Shown here piece by piece: positions 25,628-56,192 of a stretch of 64,000 nt of DNA (position 1 is the stretch's first letter; the number at the start of each line of letters is the position of its first letter). Source of the DNA: Sedimenticola hydrogenitrophicus (GTDB taxonomy: Bacteria; Pseudomonadota; Gammaproteobacteria; Chromatiales; Chromatiaceae); the NCBI RefSeq assembly GCF_029017505.1, contig NZ_JAQGEI010000017.1, positions 1-64,000 on the forward strand. Reading direction: 5' to 3'. The position numbers were made by a program, and so were the translations under genes. The notes under the pieces are model-generated. The model was not told where the DNA came from, searched no databases, and saw nothing but the letters and a program-made list of their open reading frames with translations.

Positions 25628-26605
<978 letters not shown>

Positions 26606-40654: not shown

Positions 40655-41602
40655 GTGGCCAGCAACCCCTTTCAACGACAACTCAAGTCCATCCTGGACG
40701 GATTTCGCCAGGAACCTCCCAGCCGCACGCCGTCGCTGGTCGCCACCCTGTTCGGCGATGTGGTGGAGTCCCATGACCGGGAGATCTGGCTTGGTAGCAT
40801 CACCGCCCTGCTGGAACCGCTTGGCGTCAACGAACGGCTGGTGCGCACCGCCGTCTACCGGCTGGCCAAGGATGACTTTGTCGAGAGCAGCAAGATCGGA
40901 CGGCGCAGCTATTATCGCCTGACCGAGAGCGCCCGGAAGAAGGTCAGCGGCTACGACGAACTGATCTACTACCCCTCCAACAAACAGTGGAATGGCGACT
41001 GGATCCTGGTATTCACCGGCACCCAGGGGATCAATGCCAAACAGCGCGCACGGCTGCGCAAGGAGCTGACCTGGCTCGGTTACGGCATCATCGCTCCCAA
41101 CGCCTATGGCCATCCGACCGCACCCATCACCCAGACCCAGGCGATCCTTGCCCAGGTCGGGGTCACCAACCAGGCGGTGGTGCTGCGGGCGAGCAATTAT
41201 GACCCCATGTACGGGCTCGGCACCAAAGGCATGGTGCGTCAGTGTTTCAAGCTGGGCGAGCTGGAGAAGCAGTACGGCGCCTTCATCAAGCATTACCGGT
41301 CGCTGGCCAAGGCGATGCAGCATGCCCGGCATGTGGAGCAGGAGGATCCGGAGCACTGCTTCATGCTGCGCATCATGCTGATCCATCACTACCGCCGCAT
41401 CCTGTTGAAAGATCCCAAACTGCCGGCCGAACTGCTGCCGGACAACTGGCTGGGACAACAGGCGCAGGATCTGTGCGCCGCCATCTATCGCCCCCTGGAG
41501 GCATGCTCCGAACAGCATATCCTGGCGCTGTGCGAGAACCAGGCCGGCCCCTTTCGTCAGACCTCACCCCGGTTCAGTCAGCGGTTTGCGTCTTGGGCCT
41601 GA
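40655..41602 (+). CDS. paaX: PaaX phenylacetyl-CoA-responsive repressor
   Basis: A 315-residue regulator (E. coli PaaX has 316). The N-terminal winged helix (about residues 22-85; SLVATLFGDVVESHDREIWLG, then VRTAVYRLAKDDFVESSKIGRRSYYRL), a central Cas2-like domain (about 95-180) and the C-terminal PaaX domain (to about 300) are in the family order. In E. coli it represses the paa operons until phenylacetyl-CoA binds. The start is GTG at 40655 (MASNPFQ). It stands beside, and points towards, the diiron/reductase genes, and likely acts on the GATACAA sites at 44.3 and 46.6 kb. Confidence 0.95.
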   Translation: MASNPFQRQLKSILDGFRQEPPSRTPSLVATLFGDVVESHDREIWLGSITALLEPLGVNERLVRTAVYRLAKDDFVESSKIGRRSYYRLTESARKKVSGYDELIYYPSNKQWNGDWILVFTGTQGINAKQRARLRKELTWLGYGIIAPNAYGHPTAPITQTQAILAQVGVTNQAVVLRASNYDPMYGLGTKGMVRQCFKLGELEKQYGAFIKHYRSLAKAMQHARHVEQEDPEHCFMLRIMLIHHYRRILLKDPKLPAELLPDNWLGQQAQDLCAAIYRPLEACSEQHILALCENQAGPFRQTSPRFSQRFASWA

Positions 41603-41833: not shown

Positions 41834-42877
41834 TCAAAGCAACCGATCGGCCGCCGGCGTCTCCGGTGACGCCTGCTGCTCAAAGAAGCCCTCGGTATGG
41901 ATCTGCGCCTCCCTGGCCCCCAGCGCCCTGGCGGCGGCGATGCAGGCGTCGACGAACTCGGGGCTGCCGGCGGCATAGACGCTGTGCTTAGAGAGATCGG
42001 GGAACATCTCCGGCAGGATGGCCGGGATCCGCCCCAGCGGCGCCTCACCCTGCTCCCGGGTCAGGGTGCGCACAAATTTGAAGTTGCGGTGTTTCGCCTG
42101 CCACAGGGCAAGCCGGCCGGTGTCATACAGATCGTCATGGGTCGGCGCCGAGAACAGCACCGTCACCGGTTGCCGGTAGCCGCGGCTCAGGGCTGCCTCG
42201 GCCAGGGCCATGATCGGTGCCAGCCCGGTACCGGCCGCCAGGCAGAGCACCGGGGTCTCGGCCGCCGGATCACCGATGAAGGTGCCGTAGGGACCCGACA
42301 GCTTGATCCGGTCGCCCACCTTGAGGTTGTCATGCACCCAGTTGCTGATGCCGCCGCCCTCGACCCGGGCGATCTGCAGGCTGATCTCGCCATCCGGACG
42401 CGAGGCGTTGGCAATGGAGTAGGCACGCGGTGGAATCTGATTGTCAGGATGGTTCACCAGCACGTACTGGCCCGGCCAGTAGCGTAGCGGCTTGCCCACC
42501 GGCCGTAGCCGCAGTTCAATGATACGGTGGGTACGCACCAGCCGCTCCACCACCACGAAGGAGACGTTCTCCCGCGGTGGAAACAGCTTCGGTTGCGCAT
42601 CCTCGGTGCCCCACTCGATCTCCAGCAGATCCGACAGCGGCTTGGCCATGCACATCAGGCCGAAGCCCTGATCCCGCTCCTCCGGGGCCAGCGCCATGTC
42701 CAGCACCATGCCCTGGTCGAACTCGCCCTGCCGGACCTTGATCTTGCATTCGCCGCAGGCGCCGGCACGGCAGTTGTTGGGCAGTGCATAGCCCGCCTTT
42801 TCCAGCGCGGCCAGGACGGTCTCCCCCTGCTGGCACTCCACCTCGTGACCGGATGGATATAATCGGATTTTTTTCAT
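41834..42877 (-). CDS. [2Fe-2S]-flavin reductase with N-terminal ferredoxin domain
   Basis: A 347-residue electron-transfer protein. The plant-type [2Fe-2S] domain comes first (Cys36, Cys41, Cys44 and Cys76; NNCRAGACGECKIK). An FAD domain (IPPRAYSIANAS) and an NAD(P) domain (LCLAAGTGLAPIMALAEAAL) follow. This order matches reductases of bacterial multicomponent diiron monooxygenases and BenC-like reductases. PaaE is the opposite: its [2Fe-2S] domain is at the C-terminus. So this is not a PaaE orthologue, although it lies in the paa cluster and is the likely electron donor for the diiron protein at 43169. An FNR-like reductase for another oxygenase is the alternative. Confidence 0.9.
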   Translation of the reverse strand: MKKIRLYPSGHEVECQQGETVLAALEKAGYALPNNCRAGACGECKIKVRQGEFDQGMVLDMALAPEERDQGFGLMCMAKPLSDLLEIEWGTEDAQPKLFPPRENVSFVVVERLVRTHRIIELRLRPVGKPLRYWPGQYVLVNHPDNQIPPRAYSIANASRPDGEISLQIARVEGGGISNWVHDNLKVGDRIKLSGPYGTFIGDPAAETPVLCLAAGTGLAPIMALAEAALSRGYRQPVTVLFSAPTHDDLYDTGRLALWQAKHRNFKFVRTLTREQGEAPLGRIPAILPEMFPDLSKHSVYAAGSPEFVDACIAAARALGAREAQIHTEGFFEQQASPETPAADRLL

Positions 42878-42929
42878 CAGTTAATACCAGACCATGGGTA
42901 AAGCCGCTCCCGGCCATCCGGCTTGTCGC

Positions 42930-43006
42930 CGCAGGGGCAGGCCCCTGTGCCTGCCCTTTTCCAACGAAGCACCACCATCCGGGCAACCACGGGGGGTTGC
43001 CCCTAT
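42930..43006 (+). repeat. GTAGGGGCAGGCCCC repeat, copy B
   Basis: A diverged copy (begins GCAGGGGCAGGCCCC, ends GGTTGCCCCTATG) in the gap between the diiron and reductase genes, in tandem with copy C. Confidence 0.85.
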
Positions 43007-43037
43007 GCGGCATGGGAAAAAGCCACCGCACCAACCC

Positions 43038-43113
43038 GTAGGGGCAGGCCCCTGTGCCTGCCCTTTTCCAACGAAGCACCGCCTTCCGGGCAACCACGGG
43101 GGGTTGCCCCTAC
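43038..43113 (+). repeat. GTAGGGGCAGGCCCC repeat, copy C
   Basis: A full copy beginning GTAGGGGCAGGCCCC and ending GGTTGCCCCTAC, 31 bases after copy B. The two nearly fill the 291-base gap between the diiron and reductase genes. Confidence 0.88.
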
Positions 43114-43168
43114 GCCAATCCCTGGACAAAACCGGGAGGCGGGTCACCACCCGGTTACCTGGAAATTC

Positions 43169-44194
43169 TCAGAATATCGGAATGATCTCGTCCAGATCAA
43201 TATCCAGCACTTCCTGACCGGTAATGCCCACCTCGGGGATGGCGGGGAACGGGATGTCGTAGCGATCCAGCACCCCCTTCAGATTGAGCATCGCCCTGCG
43301 CCAGTTCTCCAGCTTCTCCTCGACCGCGGGGATACCGAAACCGGCGTTGCGCGCGATCGCCTCCGCCTCACGCTGCACGGCAATGAAATCCTCGGGCAGA
43401 TCCCAGAACTCCATCGGCGGTTCATACAGCACCGCCGACAGGAACAGGTAGCCGGCGCGGATCTGTTTGGTGATGACCGACTTGTTCTCCTCCGGCAGGC
43501 TCGGATAGTCGCGTTCCATCAATGCCATGCAGATGGCCATGTGGCGGCCCTCGTCGCGACCGATATTGCGGAACGCCTCCCGGAACACCTCCTCCTCGCA
43601 GCTCTTGGCCATCTGGTGGAAGATGGTGGCGGCAGCGATCTCGCCCATCAGGAAGGAGCTGAACAGCACCGCCAGGCTGTACTTGGGTACCGCCTGCTTG
43701 TAACCGTTCCAGTAGCGCCCGCCGTTGAAGTAGAGCCACTTGGCGTTGCGCTGCAGTTTCCGCCCCAGTTCGGTCTTGGGGGTGTAGGTCATGGCATCGG
43801 GGTGATCCAGCAGCTTGGTGATGGCGAGACCGCACATCTGCTCATGGTTCTGTTCGTCCCGGGTGACCGAGAAGAAGCAGCGGCGCACCGGATCCTCTTC
43901 ATGGTCCTCGTAGGTCTTGATCATGGCCTCGGCAAACACCGGTGGCGCGGAGGCGTCGAACACCGAGAGCAGGGTCCACCAGTAGGCGATCGACTCACGC
44001 TCTTCCCAGCTGTACTGGTCCGGATCGAAGGTATCCCAGGGCAGTTTTTCCGGGTCCCAATACTCGCGCTGGGCCGCCTCCCACACCTCCTGCATCTTGC
44101 TGGTCTCGCGCACCCAGCTCAGGGGATAGATATTGGGCTGGGGGGTCTCCGGGGGGAACTCCATCTTGTCTGCAAACCGCTCTCTCTCACTCAT
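43169..44194 (-). CDS. R2/BMM-like carboxylate-bridged diiron protein, candidate epoxidase of the phenylacetate cluster
   Basis: A 341-residue soluble protein. Two halves of a four-helix ferritin-like bundle carry all six expected iron ligands: Glu89 (VFAEAMIKTYED), Glu114 and His117 (RDEQNHEQM), Glu185 (LMGEIAAAT), and Glu215 and His218 (RDEGRHMAI). The spacing E-x24-ExxH and E-x29-ExxH fits ribonucleotide-reductase R2 and bacterial diiron monooxygenases. It is not PaaA, PaaC or BoxB by sequence. It sits where paaABCD would be expected, with its own reductase downstream and paaZ upstream, so oxygen insertion into phenylacetyl-CoA is the leading guess. The start at 44194 has GAGGAG upstream. 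Confidence 0.85.
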   Translation of the reverse strand: MSERERFADKMEFPPETPQPNIYPLSWVRETSKMQEVWEAAQREYWDPEKLPWDTFDPDQYSWEERESIAYWWTLLSVFDASAPPVFAEAMIKTYEDHEEDPVRRCFFSVTRDEQNHEQMCGLAITKLLDHPDAMTYTPKTELGRKLQRNAKWLYFNGGRYWNGYKQAVPKYSLAVLFSSFLMGEIAAATIFHQMAKSCEEEVFREAFRNIGRDEGRHMAICMALMERDYPSLPEENKSVITKQIRAGYLFLSAVLYEPPMEFWDLPEDFIAVQREAEAIARNAGFGIPAVEEKLENWRRAMLNLKGVLDRYDIPFPAIPEVGITGQEVLDIDLDEIIPIF

Positions 44195-44301
44195 CGCTCT
44201 CGCTCCTCGACTCTTTGTAACCACACCGCCCAGGGCCGTGCGGATAGACAAACCGCATGCGCCGCGTTGCGGCATGGGAGAAACATAGCAAGCATTCTTA
44301 A

Positions 44302-44345
44302 ACGATACAATATTTTTTATATTTATTTTATTTTTGTATCATTAA
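44302..44345. promoter_or_regulatory. Candidate PaaX operator upstream of the diiron gene
   Basis: GATACAA (44304-44310) and TTGTATC (44334-44340) form a perfect 7-bp inverted pair 23 bases apart in very AT-rich DNA, 110-150 bases before the diiron gene. The longer string ACGATACAATATTTT (44302-44316) recurs exactly at 46584-46598. Binding by PaaX is inferred from context. Confidence 0.65.
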
Positions 44346-44403
44346 AAATCTCGCTGCCAACCCCCCGGTTATCGTCGCGTCCCTGCGACGGAGCGACAGG
44401 CTC

Positions 44404-46425
44404 CTAGGCGGCCTGCCGCTTGGCCACCAGCGTCAACACGTCATACGTGGCGACCAGTTCGCCGCGCTGGTTATGTACCTGGCAATCCCAGCGCACCTCA
44501 CCGTACTCCTCGTTCACCCGCGGCACCTTCTGCTTGCAGGTAAAGGTCACCTGGATGGCATCCCCGGGATAGAGCGGTGTCAGAAAGCGCAGGTGCTCCA
44601 GGCCGTAATTGGCCAGCACCGGGCCCGGTGCCGGATCGACGAACAGCCCGGCGGCCGCCGAGACGATGAAGTAGCCGTGGGCCACCCGCCCCTCGAAGAA
44701 CGGATTGGCCCTGGCCGCCGCCTCGTCCATGTGGGCATAGAAGCGGTCGCCGCTGAACTCGGCGAAATGCTCGATATCCTCCAGGGTCACGACGCGCTGT
44801 CCGCTCACGATGCCCTCGCCAATCTGCAGCTCTTCAATGGACTTGCGGAAGGGGTGTACGCGGTCTTCGATGCGCCGGGCACCCGCTATCCATTTGTCGC
44901 TCACCGCGGTGAGCATGCTGGGCGATCCCTGCAGCGCGACGCACTGCATATAGTGTAGTACACCACGGATACCGCCCAGCTCCTGGCCGCCGCCGGCGCG
45001 GCCCGGCCCGCCATGGATCAGATAGGGCAGCGGCGAACCGTGGCCCGTGGACTCTTTGGCGCAGTCGCGGTTGTTGATCAGCAGCCGGCCGTGCCAGGCC
45101 CCCAGGCCCAGCACCATGGCCCGGGCGAAGGCCTCGTCGTAGGTGAAGATGGAGCTGACCAGGCTGCCCTGGCCCATCCCGGCAAGCCGGATCGCCTCAT
45201 CCACCCCCTCGTAGGGAACCACCGTGCTGACCGGACCGAACGCCTCGACATCGTGCACCTCGCGGTTCTGCAACGGCCGATCGCAATAGAGCAGCACCGG
45301 TTTCATGAAGGCCCCCGCGCCGGGGACCGCCTCGCCCGGGTCGCCATAGACGATTTCGCAGGAGCGGGTCAGCTCGGCTATCCGCTCGCGTACCTCGGCA
45401 CACTGCTCTGTGCTGGCCAGGGCGCCCATGGTCACCCCCTCCCGGTCGGGATCGCCCACCACCACCCGGCCGAGACGTGCCGCCAGCGCATCGATCACAA
45501 AGGGCGCCAGGTGACGCGGCACCAGGGCGCGGCGGATGGCGGTGCACTTCTGTCCGGACTTCACTGTCATTTCCCGCACCACCTCCTTGACGTAGAGATC
45601 GAACTCCTCGCTTCCCGGTGTGGCGTCGGGACCAAGAATGGAGGCGTTGAGCGAATCCGCCTCCATGGTGAAGCGCACCGAATTGTTGAGAATGGCCGGG
45701 TGCCGGCGCAGCATCAGGCCGGTGGAGGCGGAGCCGGTGAAGGTGACCGCATCCTGGCAGGTGACGTGATCCAGCAGGTCGCCGACACTGCCGCAGACCA
45801 GCTGCAACGAGCCCTCCGGCAGAATGCCGGATTCGATCATGTGGCGGACCATCAGCTCGGTCAGGTAGGCGGTTTGACTGGCCGGCTTGATGATGCACGG
45901 CATACCGGCGATGAAGCTGGGCGCCAGCTTCTCCAGCATTCCCCAGCAGGGGAAGTTAAAGGCGTTGATGTGGATCGCCACCCCCTCCAGCGGCACATAA
46001 ATATGCTGGCCGACAAAGCTCCCCTTGCGCGACAGCATCTCTGGCTGGCCGTCGATATAGAGGTGACCGTTTGGCATCTCGCGCCGCCCCTTGCTGGAGT
46101 AGGCGAACAGCGTGCCGGTACCGCCTTCGATATCGATCCAGGAGTCGGAACGGGTGGCACCGGTGTGCCTGGAGAGGGTATAGAACTCCTCCTTGCGCTG
46201 CTGCAGGTAGAGCCCCAGCTCCTTCAGCTTGTAGGCGCGTTCATGGAAGGTCAGCGCGCGCAACGCCGGGCCGCCCACCTCCCGGCCGTAACGCAGCATG
46301 GCGGCGAAATCGAGACCCCGGCTGCTGATCTCGGCCACCGCCTCACCGGTCACCGCGCTGTTCAGCATGACCCCCGGTCCCGCACCTTCGACCCAGGCAC
46401 CACAGGCATAACTCTTCAATCGCAT
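44404..46425 (-). CDS. paaZ: PaaZ bifunctional oxepin-CoA hydrolase/aldehyde dehydrogenase
   Basis: A 673-residue enzyme (E. coli PaaZ has 681). The N-terminal aldehyde dehydrogenase domain (about residues 1-520) has catalytic Cys294 (SGQKCTAIRRA) and Glu256 (FTMEADSLN). The C-terminal MaoC-like hydratase (about 540-670) has YAHMDEAAARANPFFEGRVAHGYF as its hot-dog motif, with Asp and His in place. It opens the oxepin-CoA ring and oxidises the resulting aldehyde to 3-oxo-5,6-dehydrosuberyl-CoA. It is divergent from paaF and heads the leftward unit paaZ-diiron-reductase. Its presence implies that the epoxide/oxepin intermediates are formed. Confidence 0.96.
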   Translation of the reverse strand: MRLKSYACGAWVEGAGPGVMLNSAVTGEAVAEISSRGLDFAAMLRYGREVGGPALRALTFHERAYKLKELGLYLQQRKEEFYTLSRHTGATRSDSWIDIEGGTGTLFAYSSKGRREMPNGHLYIDGQPEMLSRKGSFVGQHIYVPLEGVAIHINAFNFPCWGMLEKLAPSFIAGMPCIIKPASQTAYLTELMVRHMIESGILPEGSLQLVCGSVGDLLDHVTCQDAVTFTGSASTGLMLRRHPAILNNSVRFTMEADSLNASILGPDATPGSEEFDLYVKEVVREMTVKSGQKCTAIRRALVPRHLAPFVIDALAARLGRVVVGDPDREGVTMGALASTEQCAEVRERIAELTRSCEIVYGDPGEAVPGAGAFMKPVLLYCDRPLQNREVHDVEAFGPVSTVVPYEGVDEAIRLAGMGQGSLVSSIFTYDEAFARAMVLGLGAWHGRLLINNRDCAKESTGHGSPLPYLIHGGPGRAGGGQELGGIRGVLHYMQCVALQGSPSMLTAVSDKWIAGARRIEDRVHPFRKSIEELQIGEGIVSGQRVVTLEDIEHFAEFSGDRFYAHMDEAAARANPFFEGRVAHGYFIVSAAAGLFVDPAPGPVLANYGLEHLRFLTPLYPGDAIQVTFTCKQKVPRVNEEYGEVRWDCQVHNQRGELVATYDVLTLVAKRQAA

Positions 46426-46764: not shown

Positions 46765-47547
46765 ATGATGGCCTACAGGGATATCCAGGTGGACCCGCCA
46801 CGCAACGGCGTCCAGCTGATCCGGTTGAACCGCCCCGAGGCGCACAATGCGCTGCGCACCGCCCTGCTGGGTGAACTCGCCGAGGCCCTGGCGGCGGCGG
46901 CGACGGTGGATGAACAAGTCCGCGTGGTGCTGCTCAGCGGATCGGAGAAGGTGTTTGCCGCCGGTGCCGACATCAAGGAGATGGCGGCGCTGGACGCGGT
47001 TGGACTGTGGAAGGATCGGCGTCCGCAACACTGGAAGGCGATCCGCGGCTTTCCCAAGCCGCTCATCGCCGCGGTCAACGGCTACTGCCTGGGCGGCGGC
47101 CTGGAGCTGGCGATGCACGCCGACTGCATCATCGCCGGCGAGGATGCCCGCTTCGGCCAGCCCGAGATCAACCTGGGGATCATCCCCGGCGCCGGCGGCA
47201 CCCAGCGGCTGGTGCGCGCGGTCGGCAAGTCCCTGGCCATGAAGCTTATCCTCAGCGGCGAGTTCATCGGCGCGCGCGAGGCCCTGGCCGCCGGCCTGGT
47301 GGCCGAGGTGACCCAGCCGGAACTGACCCTGAAACGGGCCACCGCCCTGGCGGAGACCATGGCGGAGAAATCCCCCATCGCCCTGCGCCTGGCAAAAGAA
47401 GCCATTCTGGCCAGCTTTGAAACCCCCTTGAGCCAGGGCCTGGAACTGGAACGCAAGGCGTTCCTGTTCCTGGCCGCCAGCGCGGACCGCCGGGAGGGCA
47501 TCGAGGCCTTCCTGGAGAAGCGTCCCCCCAAATTCACAGGTCAATAA
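46765..47547 (+). CDS. paaF: 2,3-dehydroadipyl-CoA hydratase
   Basis: A 260-residue crotonase-family enzyme. The oxyanion-hole segments VFAAGADIKEMAAL and VNGYCLGGGLELAMHADCI, and the two catalytic glutamates in FGQPEINLGIIPGAGGTQRL, match enoyl-CoA hydratases and E. coli PaaF. It hydrates 2,3-dehydroadipyl-CoA in the lower pathway. ATG at 46765 or 46768 could be used. It starts the rightward unit, and the next gene is 11 bases away. Confidence 0.93.
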   Translation: MMAYRDIQVDPPRNGVQLIRLNRPEAHNALRTALLGELAEALAAAATVDEQVRVVLLSGSEKVFAAGADIKEMAALDAVGLWKDRRPQHWKAIRGFPKPLIAAVNGYCLGGGLELAMHADCIIAGEDARFGQPEINLGIIPGAGGTQRLVRAVGKSLAMKLILSGEFIGAREALAAGLVAEVTQPELTLKRATALAETMAEKSPIALRLAKEAILASFETPLSQGLELERKAFLFLAASADRREGIEAFLEKRPPKFTGQ

Positions 47548-47558
47548 AAGAGAACACC

Positions 47559-48350
47559 ATGAGTTACCACACGATTCAATTCCAGGTGGCAGACGGCGTC
47601 GCCACCCTGACCCTGAACCGGCCGGAGAGCCTGAACAGTTTCAACACCACGATGCACGGCGAGATCCGCGACGCCCTGAAGCAGGTGCGACAGGACGGCT
47701 CCATCCGCTGCCTGCTGCTTACCGGTGCCGGGCGCGGCTTCTGCGCCGGCCAGGACCTCAACGACCGGGCGGTGGCACCGGGCGAGGCGATGCCCGACCT
47801 GAGCCTCTCCATCAAACAGAACTACAACCCGCTGGTGCGCAGCCTCATGACCCTGGACAAGCCGGTGATCTGCGCGGTCAACGGCGTCGCCGCCGGGGCC
47901 GGTGCCAACATCGCCCTGGCCTGCGATATCGTGCTGGCGGCCCGCTCCGCCAGCTTCATCCAGGGCTTCTCCAAGATCGGCCTGATCCCCGACTCGGGCG
48001 GCACCTGGACCCTGCCCCGGCTGGTGGGCCGTGCCCGCGCCATGGGCATGGCCATGCTCAGCGGCAAGCTGTCGGCCGAACAGGCGGCCGACTGGGGACT
48101 GATCTGGCAGGTGGTAGATGACGACCGGCTGATGGAGGAGGCGCGCAGCCTGGCCACTCACCTGGCCACCCAGCCCACCAAGGGACTGGCGCTGACCAAG
48201 CGGGCCATCAACGCAGCCGGCGGCAACAGCCTGAAACAGCAGCTGGAGCTGGAGTGCGACCTGCAGTACATCGCCGGCTGCAGCCACGACTACCGCGAAG
48301 GCGTCGCCGCCTTCATCGCCAAGCGCCCAGCGGAATTCAAGGGGGAATAG
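47559..48350 (+). CDS. paaG: 1,2-epoxyphenylacetyl-CoA isomerase
   Basis: A 263-residue crotonase-family isomerase (E. coli PaaG has 262). [17 protein letters not shown] and the catalytic-Asp segment [18 protein letters not shown] are PaaG-specific: the aspartate stands where hydratases have glutamate. It turns the ring epoxide into oxepin-CoA, so its presence argues strongly that this organism makes the epoxide. The gap to paaH is 4 bases. Confidence 0.95.
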
Positions 48351-48354
48351 GCTA

Positions 48355-49872
48355 ATGGCCGCACTCACCACGGAACAGACCGTCGCCGTCATCGGTGCCG
48401 GCACCATGGGCGCCGGCATCGCCCAGATCGCCGCCGCCGCGGGCCACCCCACGCTGCTGTTCGACGCCAACCCGGAGGCGATCGGACGCGGCATCGGCCA
48501 GATCGATGCCGGCCTGAAGAAACAGGTCGCCCGGGGGCGGATGAGCGAGGCCGAGCGCGAGAGCCTGCTGGCCAACATCACCGCCGCCACCCGCCTGGAC
48601 GAGCTGAGTGAGGCGGCACTGGTGATCGAGGCGATCCTGGAGGATCTGCAGGTCAAGCAGCAACTGTTCGCCGAGCTGGAATCGCTGTGCGGCGAACAGA
48701 CCATCCTCGCCACCAACACCTCCTCCCTGTCGGTGACCGCCATTGCCGCCAGGCTGGCGCACCCCGGCAACCTGGTGGGCATGCACTTCTTCAACCCGGC
48801 CCCGGTGATGAAGCTGGTGGAGGTGGTCTCCGGCGTCACCACCAGCCCGGCCGTGGCGCAGACCGTGTTCGACACCGCCGCCGGCTGGGGCAAGCACCCG
48901 GTCTACGCCAAGTCCACCCCCGGTTTCATCGTCAACCGGGTGGCCCGCCCCTTCTATGCCGAGGGCATGCGCCTGCTGGAAGAGGGGGCGGCCGATGTCG
49001 CCACCCTGGACGCCATCATGCGCGAGGCGGGCGGCTTCCGCATGGGACCGTTCGAGCTCATGGACCTGATCGGCCACGACGTCAACTACGCCGTCACTAG
49101 CAGCGTCTACGCCGGTTTTTATTACGACCCGCGTTTCCTCCCCTCGCTGATCCAGAAGGAGTTGGTGGATGGCGGGCTGCATGGCCGCAAGAGCGGTCAG
49201 GGTTTCTACGACTACCGCGAGGGCGCAGTGAAAACCTCCGCGGTCGACGCCCCGGCCGCCCCGCCACCCGAGACCATCGAAATCACCGGCGAACTGGGCA
49301 TCGCCGAACCGCTGGTGGCGCTGTGGAAGCAGGCTGGCATCCGCGTCAAACGCACCGAGGGCAACGGCTGGATCCGCATCGGCCATACCCGCATCGCCCT
49401 CACCGACGGCCGCAGCGCCACCCGCCGGGGCGCCGCCGACCACCTGACGGACACCATACTGTTTGACCTGGCCCTGGACTATGCCACCGCCACCCGCTTC
49501 GCCCTGTGTCCCGGGGACAACGCCACGCCCGAGGCGCTGCAGCAGGCGGTCGGACTGTTCCAGGCCCTGGGCAAGCCGGTCTCGGTGATCGCCGACATCC
49601 CCGGCATGGTGGTGATGCGTACCGTCTGTACCCTGGCCAACGAGGCTGCCGACACGGTGTTCCAGCAGGTGTGCGACGTGGCCGGCGCCGACACCGCCAT
49701 GCAGAGCGGGGTCAACTACCCCCTCGGCCCGCTGGCCTGGGCCGAGCGCATCGGCCTGCCACGGGTACTGACGGTGCTGGAGAACCTGCTGCAGGCCTAC
49801 GGCCTGGATCGTTACCGCATCTCCCAGCTGCTGCGCCGCAAGGTCGAGGGCGGCACCCGCTTCTACGCCTGA
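48355..49872 (+). CDS. paaH: 3-hydroxyadipyl-CoA dehydrogenase
   Basis: A 505-residue enzyme, slightly longer than E. coli PaaH (475). The NAD-binding [18 protein letters not shown] is followed by [11 protein letters not shown], the catalytic His in [16 protein letters not shown] and the C-terminal domain ([14 protein letters not shown]). A second, partial 3-hydroxyacyl-CoA dehydrogenase C-domain ends the protein (residues about 380-500; [16 protein letters not shown]). It oxidises 3-hydroxyadipyl-CoA to 3-oxoadipyl-CoA. Confidence 0.95.
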
Positions 49873-49914
49873 AGCCAACCCGCCCCGATTTTTATCCAGA
49901 TAGAGATGCAGAGA

Positions 49915-51126
49915 ATGAACGACGCCTATATATACGATGCCATCCGCACCCCGATCGGCCGTTTCGGCGGCGCCCTCGCCGCGGTGCGCGCCGATGATCT
50001 CGGGGCGATCCCCCTGAAGGCGCTGATGGAGCGCAACCCCGCGGTCGACTGGTCGCAGGTGGAGGACGTGATCTACGGCTGCGCCAACCAGGCGGGCGAG
50101 GACAATCGCAACGTGGCGCGCATGGCGGCGCTGCTCGCCGGCCTGCCGGCGGTGGTGCCGGGCACCACGGTCAACCGGCTGTGCGGCTCCGGCATGGACG
50201 CGGTGAGCATGGCGGCGCGCGCCATCAAGTGTGGCGAGGCGGAGCTGTTGATCGCCGGCGGCGTCGAGTCCATGTCCCGCGCCCCGTTTGTCATGCCCAA
50301 GGCGGAGAGCGCCTTCTCGCGCCGGGCGGAGATTTATGACACCACCATCGGCTGGCGCTTCATCAACCAGCTGATGCAGCAGCAGTACGGCATCGACTCG
50401 ATGCCGGAGACGGCCGAGAACGTGGCGGAGCAGTTCGGCATCAGCAGAGCGGACCAGGATGCCTTCGCCCTCAGGAGCCAGCAGCGCGCCGGCGCGGCCC
50501 AGGCCAGCGGGCGCCTGGCCCGGGAGATCGTGCCGGTGACCCTACCCCAGCGCAAGGGCGAGGCGCGGGTGGTCGAGCAGGACGAGCACCCCCGGCCGGA
50601 CACCCGACTGGAGAAGCTGGCCAGCCTGCCCACGCCGTTCCGCCAGGGCGGTTCGGTGACGGCGGGCAACGCCTCCGGGGTCAACGACGGTGCCTGCGCC
50701 CTGCTGCTCGGCTCCAAGACCGCCGGCGAGCGCTTCGGCCTGGTCCCCAAGGCCCGGGTGGTGGCCGCCACGGCGGTCGGCGTGGAGCCGCGCATCATGG
50801 GCTTCGGTCCGGCCCCGGCCAGCCGCAAGCTGCTGCGCATGACCGGCCTGAGCATCGAACAGATAGACGTGATCGAGCTCAACGAGGCGTTCGCCGCCCA
50901 GGGGCTGGCGGTGCTGCGCGACCTGGGCGTGGCCGATGACGCCGCCCACGTCAACCCCAATGGCGGCGCCATCGCCCTGGGTCACCCGCTGGGCATGAGC
51001 GGCGCCCGCCTGGTCACCACCGCCCTGTACCAGCTGCAGCAGACGGGCGGACGCTACGCCCTCTGCACCATGTGCATCGGCGTCGGCCAGGGCATCGCCC
51101 TGATCATTGAACGTAGCGAGGGATGA
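49915..51126 (+). CDS. paaJ: 3-oxoadipyl-CoA/3-oxo-5,6-dehydrosuberyl-CoA thiolase
   Basis: A 403-residue thiolase, closely matching E. coli PaaJ (401): IRTPIGRFGGAL, the nucleophile in NRLCGSGMDAV, the His in NGGAIALGHPLGMSG and the last Cys in ALCTMCIGVGQG. It performs both thiolytic steps of the pathway, releasing acetyl-CoA and finally succinyl-CoA. An in-frame ATG at 49906 is an alternative start; 49915 gives the usual N-terminus. Confidence 0.96.
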   Translation: MNDAYIYDAIRTPIGRFGGALAAVRADDLGAIPLKALMERNPAVDWSQVEDVIYGCANQAGEDNRNVARMAALLAGLPAVVPGTTVNRLCGSGMDAVSMAARAIKCGEAELLIAGGVESMSRAPFVMPKAESAFSRRAEIYDTTIGWRFINQLMQQQYGIDSMPETAENVAEQFGISRADQDAFALRSQQRAGAAQASGRLAREIVPVTLPQRKGEARVVEQDEHPRPDTRLEKLASLPTPFRQGGSVTAGNASGVNDGACALLLGSKTAGERFGLVPKARVVAATAVGVEPRIMGFGPAPASRKLLRMTGLSIEQIDVIELNEAFAAQGLAVLRDLGVADDAAHVNPNGGAIALGHPLGMSGARLVTTALYQLQQTGGRYALCTMCIGVGQGIALIIERSEG

Positions 51127-51337: not shown

Positions 51338-51799
51338 ATGTCGACAGAAACAGAACAACAGGCCGAGGCCATCGGCCAGTGGATGGAGCAGCAGGACAAG
51401 TTTGCCCGACTGCTGGGCATCAGACTGGAAGCGGTCCGACCCGGCTATGCCCGCGCCTCCCTGACGGTCAGGCCGGATATGCTGAACGCGGTCCGGGTCA
51501 CCCAGGGCGGCGTCACCTTCACCCTGGCGGATTTTACCTTTGCGGTCGCCTCCAACTCGCACGGCACCACCTCGCTTGCCCTTTCGACCCAGCTCAGCTT
51601 TCCCGGATCGAGCCGCGAGGGTGACCGCCTGGTCGCCGAGGCCCGGGAGGAGAGTTCCACCAAACGCACCGGTCTCTATACTGTGGAGGTAAAGACCGGG
51701 GATGGCCGACTGGTTGGCCTGTTCAGCGGCACGGTATTCCGCCGCTCGGACAAGGTCGCGGAGTGGATGGAAAATAAATCTGACCCGAAGATTTCATAA
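51338..51799 (+). CDS. paaI: PaaI-type hot-dog acyl-CoA thioesterase
   Basis: A 153-residue hot-dog thioesterase. The conserved helix TQGGVTFTLADFTFAVASN has the catalytic aspartate in LAD. The CHGG motif of E. coli PaaI is replaced by TQGG, so the usual histidine is lost. PaaI normally rescues CoA from dead-end ring products. It is separated from paaJ by 211 bases with no other gene. ALSTQLSFPGSSREGDRLVAEA fits the dimer strand region. Confidence 0.88.
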   Translation: MSTETEQQAEAIGQWMEQQDKFARLLGIRLEAVRPGYARASLTVRPDMLNAVRVTQGGVTFTLADFTFAVASNSHGTTSLALSTQLSFPGSSREGDRLVAEAREESSTKRTGLYTVEVKTGDGRLVGLFSGTVFRRSDKVAEWMENKSDPKIS

Positions 51800-51964: not shown

Positions 51965-53266
51965 ATGATACTGCATTCCGAGTTCGAGACCATGCCGCGT
52001 GAGGAGCTGGAGGCGCTGCAGCTGAAACGCCTGAAGGCCACGGTGGAGCGCTGCTACCACACGGTCAAGTTTTATCGGAATGCGATGGATGACCTGGGGG
52101 TCAAACCCGAGCACATCCGCCAGCTCAGCGACGTGCGCCACCTGCCCTACACCAAGAAGGAGCACCTGCGGGAGAACTACCCGTTCGGGCTGTTTGCCGT
52201 GCCCACCGAGCAGGTGGTGCGGGTACACGCCTCCTCCGGCACCACCGGCAAGCCCACCGTGGTGGGCTACACCAGGCGGGACATCCGCACCTGGGCCCAG
52301 CTGGTGGCGCGCTGTCTCGCCGCCTCCGGCCTGCATCCCGGCGACCGGTTGCACAATGCCTACGGCTACGGCCTGTTTACCGGCGGCCTGGGGCTGCACT
52401 ACGGCGGCGAGGAGCTGGGAGTGATGGTCACCCCGATGTCCGGCGGCCAGACCCAAAAGCAGCTCATGCTGCTGCAGGATTTCGCCCCCACCGCCATCAG
52501 CTGCACCCCCTCCTACGCCCTCAACCTGGCCGAGACGGCCGAGGAGATGGGGATCAATATCCGCAAGCTGCCGCTCAAGGTCGGCATCCACGGCGCCGAG
52601 CCCTGGACCGAGGAGATGCGTTACGAACTGGAGTCCCGACTCGGCATCGACTGTGTCGACATCTATGGCCTCTCCGAGGTGATGGGCCCCGGGGTCGGCA
52701 ACGAGTGCCTGGAGGCGAAGAGTGGCCTGCACATCTGGGAGGACCACTTCCTGGTGGAGTGCGTGGATGTGGACAGCGGCAAGCCGGTGCCCTATGGCGA
52801 GGAGGGGGAGATCGTCTTCACCTCCCTGACCAAGGAGGCGTTTCCGATCATCCGCTACCGCACCCGGGACATCTCGGTACTGAACCCGGCGCCGTGCAAA
52901 TGCGGCCGCACCCATGTGCGCATGCAGCGCATCACCGGGCGCAGCGACGATATGCTGATCATCCGTGGCGTCAACGTCTATCCGACCCAGGTGGAGGCGG
53001 TGCTGATGCAGAGCGAGACCCTCTCGCCCTTCTACCAGATCGAGCTGTTCCGCGAGGGCAGCATGGACAGCATGGTGGTCAACGTGGAGGGCAGCCCGCC
53101 GCTCATGGAGCAACCGCAGGAGGCCCGCGACCGCACCGCGGCCAAGGTGGTGCGCGACATCAAGGACTTTATCGGCGTTTCCTGTAAGGTGGTGATCAAG
53201 GCGGTGGGCGAGGTGCCCCGCTCCGAGGGCAAGGCGGTGCGGGTGATCGATCACCGGAAGAAGTAA
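51965..53266 (+). CDS. paaK: Phenylacetate-CoA ligase
   Basis: A 433-residue AMP-forming ligase of the usual PaaK length. The phosphate loop is HASSGTTGKPTVVGYT, followed by IYGLSEVMGPGVGNEC and the C-domain hinge ITGRSDDMLIIRGVNVYPTQVE. It activates phenylacetate with ATP and CoA, making the substrate of the epoxidase and the ligand that releases PaaX. Confidence 0.97.
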   Translation: MILHSEFETMPREELEALQLKRLKATVERCYHTVKFYRNAMDDLGVKPEHIRQLSDVRHLPYTKKEHLRENYPFGLFAVPTEQVVRVHASSGTTGKPTVVGYTRRDIRTWAQLVARCLAASGLHPGDRLHNAYGYGLFTGGLGLHYGGEELGVMVTPMSGGQTQKQLMLLQDFAPTAISCTPSYALNLAETAEEMGINIRKLPLKVGIHGAEPWTEEMRYELESRLGIDCVDIYGLSEVMGPGVGNECLEAKSGLHIWEDHFLVECVDVDSGKPVPYGEEGEIVFTSLTKEAFPIIRYRTRDISVLNPAPCKCGRTHVRMQRITGRSDDMLIIRGVNVYPTQVEAVLMQSETLSPFYQIELFREGSMDSMVVNVEGSPPLMEQPQEARDRTAAKVVRDIKDFIGVSCKVVIKAVGEVPRSEGKAVRVIDHRKK

Positions 53267-53387: not shown

Positions 53388-53466
53388 TCATACTGTCAGC
53401 GGCCAAGTTAACAGCTTCCCGCGTCTGGCGGGGTAGCGCGACTTTAAAGAATCAGAGGTGAATATT

Positions 53467-55368
53467 GTGAGTGCAGTCCCCCCATTGGCCGGATCCAACC
53501 GGCGCTTCATGTCGGGAAACGAGGCCGTGGCACGCGGCGCCTGGGAGGCCGGCTGCAACCTGGCGGCCGCCTATCCCGGTACCCCGGCGACCGAGATCCT
53601 GGAATTCGCCGCCCACTACCCGGAGATGTATACCGAGTGGTCGGTGAACGAGAAGGTCTCCCTGGAGGTGGCCATCGGCGCCTCGCTGGCCGGCAGCCGG
53701 GCGCTCTGCGCCATGAAACACGTCGGCCTGAATGTCGCCTCCGACGCCCTGATGAGCCAAACCCTGGCCGGGGTCGGTGCCGGCCTGGTGATCGCGGTGG
53801 CCGACGACGTCGGCCTCTCCTCCTCGCAGAACGAACAGGACTCCCGCTTCTGGGGCCGCTTCGCCCATGTGCCACTGCTGGAGCCGGCCGACGCCCAGGA
53901 GGCCTACGAATACACCCAGCGGGCGTTCGAACTCTCCGAGAGCTTCAACACCCCGGTCATCCTGCGCCTCACCACCCGCATCTGCCACGTCAAGGGCGTG
54001 GTCAGCTTTGATGAACGCAGCGAAACGAGCCGGGCGGAGGGCTTCGTCAAGGATCCCGGACGCCTGATCATGACACCCAACGTGGCGAAAAAGCGGCTAC
54101 CGTTGATGTTCGAGCGCGAGGCGGAGATCCAGCGCTACAGCGAGTCCAGCGAACTCAATCAAATCATGGCCGGCAGCGACCGGCGGGTCGGCTTCGTCAC
54201 CTCCGGCCCCACCTACATGCATGTCCGCGAGGCCTTTCCCGACGCCCCGTTGATCAAGCTGGGGCTGAGTTACCCGGTCCCCGTCGACAAGATCCGCGAA
54301 CTGGCCGGCCAGGTGGACCGGCTGGTGGTGGTGGAAGAGGTGGAACCACTCCTCGAGACCGAGCTCAAGGCGGCCGGCATCGCGCTGCTGGGCAAGGAGA
54401 TCCTGCCGCGCATCGGCGAGCTCTCCCCCAATGTGCTGCGCCCGGCCATTGCCAGGCTGCTGGGTGAGGCGCTGCCCGAGACCGCCGAACCGGTCAGGGC
54501 GCCGATCGAGATCAAACCGCCGGCGCCGCGCATCGATCCGGCCACCGGCGCCAATGTGTTCCCGCGCCCCCCCACCATGTGCGTGGCCTGCCCCCACCTG
54601 GGCATCTACTACTGCCTGTCGAAAATCCGCAACACCACCATCTCCGGCGACATCGGCTGCTATACCCTGGGTGCCGGGCACCCCTGGAACGCCCTGGACA
54701 CCACCATCTGCATGGGCGCCTCCATGGGCATCGCCCACGGCCTGGACAAGGGCCGGGTCGAGGCGGACAGGGACAAGAAGATCATCGCCGTGATCGGCGA
54801 CTCCACCTTCATGCACATGGGCATGCAGGGGCTGCTCGACATCACCTACAACAAGGGCAACGTCACCATCCTGCTGCTGGACAACCGCGCGGTCGGCATG
54901 ACCGGCGGCCAGGACAACCCGGCCAGCGGCCGCGATATCCATGGCAACGAGGCGATGAAGGTGGATTTCCGTAAGCTGTGCGAGGCCCTGGGGGTGAAAC
55001 CGGAGCGCATCCACGAGGTGAATCCCTACGAGCTGCCGACCCTGTTCACCGCGCTGCGCGACGAGGTGAAGATCCCCGAGCCCTCGGTGATCATCACCAA
55101 CCAGCCCTGCGTGCTGATCGACTACTATGGCGCCCAGCCGGCGCTGACGGTGGATGACGCCAAGTGCACCGGCTGTGGCAACTGCCTGGATATCGGCTGT
55201 CCGGCGATCCTGGTGACGCGACGCGAGACCGTGGTCAAGCCGAACGGCAGCGAGAAGGAGCTGGCCTTCGTCAAGATTGAGAGCGGCGCCTGCACCGGCT
55301 GCAATCTCTGTCCCAAGACCTGCGGTCCGGATGCCATCCTGCCGCTGGCCGATTACATCCGCCAGTGA
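53467..55368 (+). CDS. iorA: Indolepyruvate/phenylpyruvate:ferredoxin oxidoreductase alpha subunit
   Basis: A 633-residue enzyme subunit. The pyrimidine-binding domain (MSGNEAVARGAWEAG, AYPGTPATEILEF), a central domain, the TPP-binding domain (GDSTFMHMGMQGLLDITYNKG, then NRAVGMTGGQDNPASG) and two C-terminal [4Fe-4S] motifs (CTGCGNCLDIGCP and CTGCNLCPKTCGP) are all present. It oxidises arylpyruvates from aromatic amino acids to aryl-acetyl-CoA, feeding phenylacetyl-CoA into the pathway without PaaK. The GTG at 53467 is preferred over 53458 because AGAGG lies just before it. Confidence 0.95.
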   Translation: MSAVPPLAGSNRRFMSGNEAVARGAWEAGCNLAAAYPGTPATEILEFAAHYPEMYTEWSVNEKVSLEVAIGASLAGSRALCAMKHVGLNVASDALMSQTLAGVGAGLVIAVADDVGLSSSQNEQDSRFWGRFAHVPLLEPADAQEAYEYTQRAFELSESFNTPVILRLTTRICHVKGVVSFDERSETSRAEGFVKDPGRLIMTPNVAKKRLPLMFEREAEIQRYSESSELNQIMAGSDRRVGFVTSGPTYMHVREAFPDAPLIKLGLSYPVPVDKIRELAGQVDRLVVVEEVEPLLETELKAAGIALLGKEILPRIGELSPNVLRPAIARLLGEALPETAEPVRAPIEIKPPAPRIDPATGANVFPRPPTMCVACPHLGIYYCLSKIRNTTISGDIGCYTLGAGHPWNALDTTICMGASMGIAHGLDKGRVEADRDKKIIAVIGDSTFMHMGMQGLLDITYNKGNVTILLLDNRAVGMTGGQDNPASGRDIHGNEAMKVDFRKLCEALGVKPERIHEVNPYELPTLFTALRDEVKIPEPSVIITNQPCVLIDYYGAQPALTVDDAKCTGCGNCLDIGCPAILVTRRETVVKPNGSEKELAFVKIESGACTGCNLCPKTCGPDAILPLADYIRQ

Positions 55369-55414
55369 TCCCGGCGCAACCGAAGAATCAACCCATCCGA
55401 ACCGAGAATCCATT

Positions 55415-56011
55415 GTGAGCGAAAACAAAATCACCAATATCCTGGTCGCCGGCATCGGCGGCCAGGGCGTCATGACCGCTGCCGAGATCCTCTCCCAGAC
55501 CGCCCTCTCCCAGGGCTTCGATGTGAAGAAGACCGAGGTGGCGGGCATGGCCCAGCGCGGCGGCGTGGTCACCTCCCACGTGCGTTTCGGCACCCGGGTG
55601 CTGTCACCCGCCATCCCCCCCGGCGAGGCGGATATCCTGGTGGGCTTCGAACCGGCCGAGGCGCTGCGCTGGATCAGTCACCTGCGCCCCAGCGGCGTGG
55701 CCATGATCAATACCACCCGCCAGGAACCGCCGGTGGTGAGTCTCGGCCTGTACGATTATCCGCAGGATCCAATCGGCGAGATCGCCGCCACCGGGATCGA
55801 ATACCACGCCTTCGACGCCGGCGCCATCGCCCGCGAACTGGGCAACTTCAAGCTGGTCAACACGGTGATGCTGGGGGCCATCTCGGCACTGCTGCCGTTC
55901 CCGGCCGAGGCGCTGAAGAACGAGATCCTGGACCGCTTCCGCGGCCGCAAGCCCACCCTGGTGGAGATCAACGACAAGGCCTTCGAGCTGGGCCGCCAGG
56001 CCAGCCTGTAG
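55415..56011 (+). CDS. iorB: Indolepyruvate/phenylpyruvate:ferredoxin oxidoreductase beta subunit
   Basis: A 198-residue gamma-type subunit (ILVAGIGGQGVMTAAEILSQ, KKTEVAGMAQRGGVVTSHVRFG). It pairs with IorA. The GTG at 55415 gives the standard N-terminus. Its TAG stop (56009-56011) lies in the first bases of repeat copy D, so the repeat abuts or formed the gene's end. Confidence 0.94.
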   Translation: MSENKITNILVAGIGGQGVMTAAEILSQTALSQGFDVKKTEVAGMAQRGGVVTSHVRFGTRVLSPAIPPGEADILVGFEPAEALRWISHLRPSGVAMINTTRQEPPVVSLGLYDYPQDPIGEIAATGIEYHAFDAGAIARELGNFKLVNTVMLGAISALLPFPAEALKNEILDRFRGRKPTLVEINDKAFELGRQASL

Positions 56012-56084
56012 GGACAGGCCCCCGTGCCTACCCTTTTTTCCGGACGCCCGGGAACACCGGGCAACCACAGGGGGTTGCCCCTAC
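56008..56084 (+). repeat. GTAGGGGCAGGCCCC repeat, copy D
   Basis: A full copy (GTAGGGACAGGCCCCCG to GGTTGCCCCTAC) that includes the iorB stop codon. Copy E follows 31 bases later. Confidence 0.88.
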
Positions 56085-56115: not shown

Positions 56116-56192
56116 GTAGGGGCAGGCCCCCGTGCCTGCCCTTTTTGCCGGATGCCCAGGAACACCGGGCAACCACGGGGGGTTGCCCCTAC
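56116..56192 (+). repeat. GTAGGGGCAGGCCCC repeat, copy E
   Basis: A full copy (GTAGGGGCAGGCCCCCG to GGTTGCCCCTAC). Together with D it fills most of the 311-base gap between iorB and the class II DAHP synthase gene. Confidence 0.88.

Follow-up and report, generated by a model that had tools for sequence, protein, structure and literature searches.

PaaA, a subunit of the phenylacetyl-coenzyme A (CoA) epoxidase PaaABCDE, belongs to the wide ferritin-like diiron superfamily. Its expected ligands are E42, E72, H75, D126, E155 and H158 (PMC4498308, in the part covered), and a 2026 survey of the pathway uses PaaA and PaaC as markers, lists configurations without an epoxidase and, in the parts covered, names no replacement for it (PMC13186573). 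The window analyzed here, 64,000 nucleotides of Sedimenticola hydrogenitrophicus (contig NZ_JAQGEI010000017.1, positions 1 to 64,000), contains a phenylacetate (paa) cluster in which two adjacent genes, one for a diiron protein and one for a reductase, sit between paaX and paaZ. The original prediction was that this pair acts in place of PaaABCDE. Our analysis indicates that the pair is probably a two-component phenylacetyl-CoA ring monooxygenase, a ring epoxidase non-orthologous to PaaA; epoxidation of the phenylacetyl-CoA ring is its likeliest function because of the gene content around the pair, its distribution and a shared inverted repeat.

We searched the whole assembly (5.13 Mb in 116 contigs, completeness 100) and found neither PaaA (TIGR02156, E ≤ 1e-40) nor PaaB (PF06243, E ≤ 0.001). 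The PaaA/PaaC family PF05138 gave one match, of 27 bits (28.7 with neighbors in frame), to a 496-amino-acid protein; because this weak match adjoins a BoxC-like gene, the protein reads as BoxB, with both the BoxB and the BoxC assignments being putative ones made from translations. A PaaA hidden elsewhere in the genome was thus considered and rejected on the basis of the PF05138, TIGR02156 and PaaB searches, and the prediction that no PaaABCDE core lies outside the cluster held for PaaA, PaaB and PaaC, with no separate search made for PaaD or PaaE. The downstream genes lie at the locus as predicted: paaG, paaZ, paaH and paaJ pass their family cut-offs, and paaF, paaK and paaX fall just short.

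A contig scan found 534 places that encode a relative of the diiron protein, and our neighborhood and genome counts cover the best 80 of these (L009–L088), which lie mostly in Rhodocyclales, Sedimenticola, Castellaniella, Marinospirillum, Magnetospirillum and metagenome-assembled genomes (MAGs). Longest-ORF calls gave antisense open reading frames (ORFs) in GC-rich loci; calls weighted by third-codon-position GC (GC3) were used instead, with some genes still mis-called. In random samples the pair was rare, occurring in 1 of 369 genomes of the class (the window's own) and 2 of 398 of the phylum. The reductase gene adjoins the diiron gene in all 80 loci, separated by 3–477 bases, which argues that the pairing is more than chance. 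The pair also mostly keeps company with paa genes, as predicted, with paaG (≥50% identity) in 60 of the 80 loci, paaZ or paaN in 62 and both kinds in 59. PaaN (in 51 of the 54 loci having it) or PaaZ (in 8) is encoded directly beside the diiron gene, within 1.2 kb upstream. PaaN was assigned by TIGR02288 from two scanned proteins, which scored 904 and 875 bits; in our own equation of the two, these dehydrogenases correspond to PacL, which is described in the covered part of one study as acting with a separate oxepin-CoA hydrolase (PMC9007349).

In 44 of the 80 pair-bearing genomes no PaaA exceeded the cut-off; of the two sets of 50 and 30 genomes, 21 and 15, respectively, had one that did. PaaB (PF06243) was absent from all 44, and an added PaaA-positive control (L047) gave a match. 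Nine of the 44 had a PF05138 match, eight of which coincided with BoxB (TIGR03225 above cut-off); the ninth, in the Bacteriovoracaceae genome G757, is a real divergent PaaA-like single protein, leaving 43 genomes. Both paaG and either paaZ or paaN lay beside the pair in 34 of the 44 PaaA-less genomes, an outcome in keeping with the proposed co-occurrence, and 12 of the 34 do not carry the MAG label. Incompleteness of MAGs can explain some of the PaaA absences, not those in non-MAG records. The same genomes bear on whether BoxAB of the benzoate route supplies the epoxide instead. A BoxB-like gene is present in the window's genome and TIGR03225 is above cut-off in 8 of the 44, but BoxB is missing from 28 of the 34 genomes in which the pair adjoins a paa cluster (9 of the 28 not MAGs), and BoxB is reported, in the covered part of one paper, to be unable to catalyze phenylacetyl-CoA monooxygenation (PMC4498308); this explanation is already largely refuted, and we give it almost no credence.

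The diiron protein matched no Pfam or NCBIfam family above cut-off, its best sub-threshold matches being to PF00268 (24.6 of 33.6 bits), rubrerythrin and AurF. PF05138 did not match it at E ≤ 0.1, and an hhalign profile comparison with PaaA gave a probability of 0.3%, that is, no link. Its identity to homologues was 49–78% for those taken from plasmid records and a single genome, and 78–94% for close ones on GTDB contigs. Asp80, Glu114, His117, Glu185, Glu215 and His218 were invariant in all 58 close sequences and in all seven more diverse ones. At position 89 the seven homologues had E, E, S, R, R, R and R, and Glu89 was rejected as a diiron ligand because it is not conserved. Conservation therefore points to Asp80, Glu114/His117, Glu185 and Glu215/His218 as the likely ligands, so the predicted ligand set survived with Asp80 in the place of Glu89; the diiron ORF, the reductase and the paa cluster themselves were as originally described. 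phmmer aligned the protein weakly with NrdF2, an R2 protein (E 0.14), and in that alignment Asp80 coincided with the Asp of an LDT stretch, an Asp that we take to be an R2 ligand.

An AlphaFold2 model of the diiron protein, built from 58 sequences, had a mean predicted local distance difference test score (pLDDT) of 87.7 and a predicted template modeling score (pTM) of 0.86; the plasmid-collection homologues supplied distant alignment rows and were not used for it. In a Foldseek search with the model, the top 50 listed of 465 matches were all R2 proteins or R2-like ligand-binding oxidases (best E 5.4e-4; template modeling (TM) scores 0.38–0.52 by query). The predicted four-helix fold and the six conserved Asp/Glu/His ligands would place the protein in the wide R2-like carboxylate-bridged diiron superfamily. 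Because the R2-like model puts it in the same wide superfamily as PaaA, we prefer 'non-orthologous' to the 'non-homologous' of the original prediction, which was right in that we found no sequence or profile link to PaaA.

At ~115 bases upstream of the diiron gene, 68 of 79 loci carry an inverted repeat of the form YGATAC-N27/28-GTATCA (≤2 mismatches), compared with 135 of 3950 shuffled upstream regions (N27 or N28) and 58 of 3160 random windows (N27 only). The figure of 68 is a post hoc count on related loci, the motif having been revised after the window's own site was viewed. The starting motif, TGATTC-N27-GAATCA, which we take to be the PaaX motif, occurred at ≤2 mismatches in 8 of 79 upstream regions versus 3 of 1600 random windows. 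At ≤1 mismatch, 52 of the 62 sites in the 80 loci precede the diiron gene, and single further sites stand before paaA (two), paaZ, paaG, livK or paaF. PaaX-like genes lie within 2.5 kb in 35 of the 80 loci; no flanking PaaX match was found in 42 of 79, and 5 N27 and 47-related N28 forms still occur there. We propose that the repeat is an operator through which PaaX may regulate the pair.

The replacement claim applies to this genome and to 43 or more of the others analyzed, but does not extend to the family as a whole. Pair-bearing species in which no PaaA was found include Azonexus hydrophilus, Dechloromonas denitrificans and Castellaniella defragrans; Zoogloea and Dechloromonas sp. H13 have both enzymes. 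PaaA presence differed between close relatives with nearly identical diiron proteins, and on a tree of 87 diiron sequences the PaaA label (39 with, 44 without, 4 unassigned; three rows labelled by hand) changed at least 16 times, of which the starred branches force only 3. From this interleaving we conclude that the same enzyme occurs both with and without PaaABCDE. In Nitrincola and two Marinospirillum genomes the order is paaK, diiron gene, reductase gene, paaABCDE, and on Vitreoscilla pVF1 paaABCDE and the pair share one cluster. The pair is thus an alternative or a second enzyme and not always a replacement, and the replacement interpretation is overall partly supported.

Several observations weigh against assigning ring epoxidation to the pair. 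PaaA is also present in 36 of the 80 pair genomes, in 20 of them in the same locus. In some genomes the pair is not part of any paa cluster, with neither paaG, paaZ nor paaN found in the flanks of 17 of the 80 loci. A flanking paaG is missing in 20 genomes, of which 19 were scored (L022 was left out); 14 have PaaG above cut-off elsewhere and 5 have none above cut-off anywhere. In G653 the pair stands beside genes read as a meta-cleavage route, with paaABCDE 460 kb away, and 11 of 79 loci have no inverted repeat. The nearest solved folds, at modest TM scores, are R2 and R2-like oxidases and no known CoA-ester epoxidase. Two Paraburkholderia loci (L042 and L056) showed only the diiron gene, the reductase gene and a PaaX-like gene.

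Some of these observations would fit a pair that oxidizes a related CoA ester or arylacetate feeding the paa route, such as hydroxylated phenylacetyl-CoA, with phenylacetyl-CoA epoxidation in PaaA-less genomes being carried out by something else or lost. Co-occurrence with PaaABCDE and the different gene setting in G653 point that way, as do the Vitreoscilla pair, which lies between the full paa cluster and hpaH/hpaI genes, and the 50%-identical Variovorax homologues, which are clustered with a PaaK-like ligase, a thiolase, MaoC and, in one case, PaaN. However, paaG with paaZ or paaN beside the pair in most PaaA-less genomes would make little sense without an epoxide supply, and no further oxygenase was noticed in the window's cluster; we consider oxidation of another substrate unlikely. 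Homologues at ~50% identity occur in Variovorax (L005, L006 and L007) and Nonomuraea (L008), and near the three Variovorax homologues lie genes for the reductase, a Liv-type transporter, a ligase, a thiolase and MaoC-type proteins. The substrate of the homologues may differ; this wider family may attack other arylacetyl-CoA esters.

As a negative control we took the 369 class genomes and asked for a PaaG-like match at E ≤ 1e-95, scoring at most six candidates per genome. Such a match was found in 21 genomes, 8 of them without PaaA, including the window's own, which has the pair. The other seven (7 of 20; G084, G208, G014, G157, G268, G354 and G214) have no pair, which means that PaaG without PaaA is not unique to pair-bearing genomes. 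In G014, G157, G268, G354 and G214 the stretches examined held only partial paa sets, and no epoxidase candidate was found there. These genomes, five of which have no non-BoxB PF05138 protein, together with a fold nearest to R2 and R2-like oxidases, could mean that the paa cluster is a remnant or uses another, unrecognized enzyme, and that the pair is a non-catabolic accessory of the R2-like ligand-binding oxidase type. The constant presence of an NAD(P)H reductase with the diiron gene, the inverted repeat common to paa genes and the partial paa sets of the five counter-examples argue otherwise, and we regard an accessory oxidase as very improbable. As a separate observation, the paa clusters of G084 and G208 each contain one divergent protein matching PF05138 (L089:7112-7948 and L090:2325-3140; 84 bits, 26–27% identical to PaaA) and no TIGR02156 PaaA; judged from their sequences, these proteins are possibly a further type of epoxidase, and G757 has a similar single protein.

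Were the pair the ring epoxidase, as we think probable, phenylacetyl-CoA (from PaaK or IorAB) and O2 would bind to an Asp/Glu4/His2 diiron site of R2 type in the diiron protein, NAD(P)H would reduce this protein through the FAD/[2Fe-2S] reductase, and transfer of one oxygen atom to the ring would yield the 1,2-epoxide. PaaG would then turn the epoxide into oxepin-CoA, and PaaZ, or PaaN with a separate hydrolase, would open the ring. Substrate, product and electron flow are all inferred here for the pair, which would be the only candidate for epoxidation in this genome's cluster and would act beside PaaABCDE in other genomes. More tentatively, and with somewhat less than even confidence, we suggest a separate origin, from R2 and not from PaaA or BoxB, for a lineage of CoA-ester ring epoxidases that displaced PaaABCDE repeatedly. 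One reason might be that an enzyme with one subunit is advantageous at low oxygen, as in denitrifiers and in the chlorate or perchlorate reducers that make O2 internally.

Table 1. Features of the paa locus in the 64-kb window of Sedimenticola hydrogenitrophicus.
Feature	Position	Strand	Basis and proposed role
paaX-like regulator	40655..41602	+	PF07848, PF08223, PF20803; TIGR02277 263 of 264.6 bits, just below cut-off
Reductase, 347 aa (amino acids), N-terminal [2Fe-2S] + FAD + NAD domains	41834..42877	-	Pfam; BenC-like 166 of 430 bits; proposed electron donor
Diiron oxygenase, 341 aa, predicted R2-like fold	43169..44194	-	ORF; proposed catalytic subunit of phenylacetyl-CoA epoxidase
Inverted repeat CGATAC-N27-GTATCA	44303..44341	.	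Between paaZ and diiron gene; proposed operator of phenylacetate regulon
paaZ, bifunctional ring-opening enzyme	44404..46425	-	TIGR02278 1038 bits, passes NCBIfam cut-off
paaF-like enoyl-CoA hydratase	46765..47547	+	NF007239 367 of 371 bits, just below cut-off
paaG, epoxide isomerase	47559..48350	+	TIGR02280 421 bits, cut-off 345
paaH	48355..49872	+	TIGR02279 694 bits, cut-off 669
paaJ/pcaF thiolase	49906..51126	+	TIGR02430 724 bits, cut-off 597
paaI-like thioesterase	51338..51799	+	TIGR02286 108.5 of 118.9 bits, just below cut-off
paaK-like phenylacetate-CoA ligase	51965..53266	+	TIGR02155 608 of 646 bits, just below cut-off
iorA + iorB-like genes (indolepyruvate ferredoxin oxidoreductase)	53458..56011	+	ORF reading only, no family scan

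Within the locus, paaZ lies upstream of the diiron gene and the paaX-like gene faces the reductase gene. A GGAG-like site precedes the diiron-gene ATG at 44194; an upstream ATG would yield 368 amino acids, and the homologues start at the 341-amino-acid start. A 24-base palindromic repeat occurs in five copies in the window (26466-26489, 42933-42956, 43040-43063, 56010-56033 and 56118-56141; 0 expected by chance), two of which fall within the 291-base gap between the diiron and reductase genes. The IorAB-like proteins are a possible source of phenylacetyl-CoA from phenylpyruvate, and iorA- and iorB-like counterparts occupy the same positions in L089 (66% and 72%). PaaK of the window shares 89% identity with its L014 counterpart and only 54% with the one from S. 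selenatireducens L009, a locus with 87–91% identity to the window in its other paa genes, indicating two different paaK genes in the genus. Beside the pair in another locus (L057:14858-16216), one ORF combines a LivF-type ATP-binding cassette ATPase with an N-terminal hemerythrin domain (PF01814), and this apparent fusion may sense oxygen or iron.

Strain CUZ of S. selenatireducens has aerobic and anaerobic pathways for both phenylacetate and benzoate, according to the covered part of one paper (PMC5748585). For the epoxidase missing in Sedimenticola, the pair is a candidate that can be named and tested, and a simpler one than the multisubunit enzyme. A 2015 mBio abstract by Carlstrom et al. 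reportedly states that paaABCD was not found in CUZ and NSS, yet that the aerobic hybrid pathway is used, and that work may already point to the genes of the pair. Our literature searches, beyond whose reach lay Carlstrom 2015 and two Teufel papers, found no paper naming the pair. A rule that takes PaaA and PaaC as markers would miss 43 of the 80 genomes, though 34 carry downstream genes beside the pair. If our reading is true, the pair adds a third way in which the rings of CoA esters are epoxidized.

Among known systems, the AurF-type N-oxygenases (PF11583) resemble the diiron protein in that four members of its family give weak matches, at 20–25.3 of 29.6 bits (the window's at 20), but all of these are below cut-off and the genomic setting is another one. 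R2 and the R2-like ligand-binding oxidases share its predicted fold and, with Asp in first place, its R2-type ligand set, whereas the diiron protein falls below the PF00268 cut-off and sits with a reductase in catabolic clusters, with no ribonucleotide reductase large subunit noticed in the window's cluster. BoxAB likewise combines a one-protein diiron CoA-ester epoxidase with a separate reductase and lacks a scaffold subunit; it differs in that the diiron protein has no TIGR03225 match (E ≤ 0.01) and 341 rather than about 496 amino acids, and in that the pair's reductase is not BoxA (TIGR03224, 23.8 of 459.2 bits). With PaaABCDE the pair shares the pathway and cluster position, a diiron site of Glu/Asp residues with two ExxH-type motifs, and the need for an NAD(P)H reductase. 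Unlike PaaE (117.6 of 420.8 bits against the PaaE model), its reductase has the domain order Fer2, FAD, NAD, with the [2Fe-2S] domain N-terminal as originally predicted, and one catalytic protein stands where PaaABCDE has PaaA, PaaC and PaaB.

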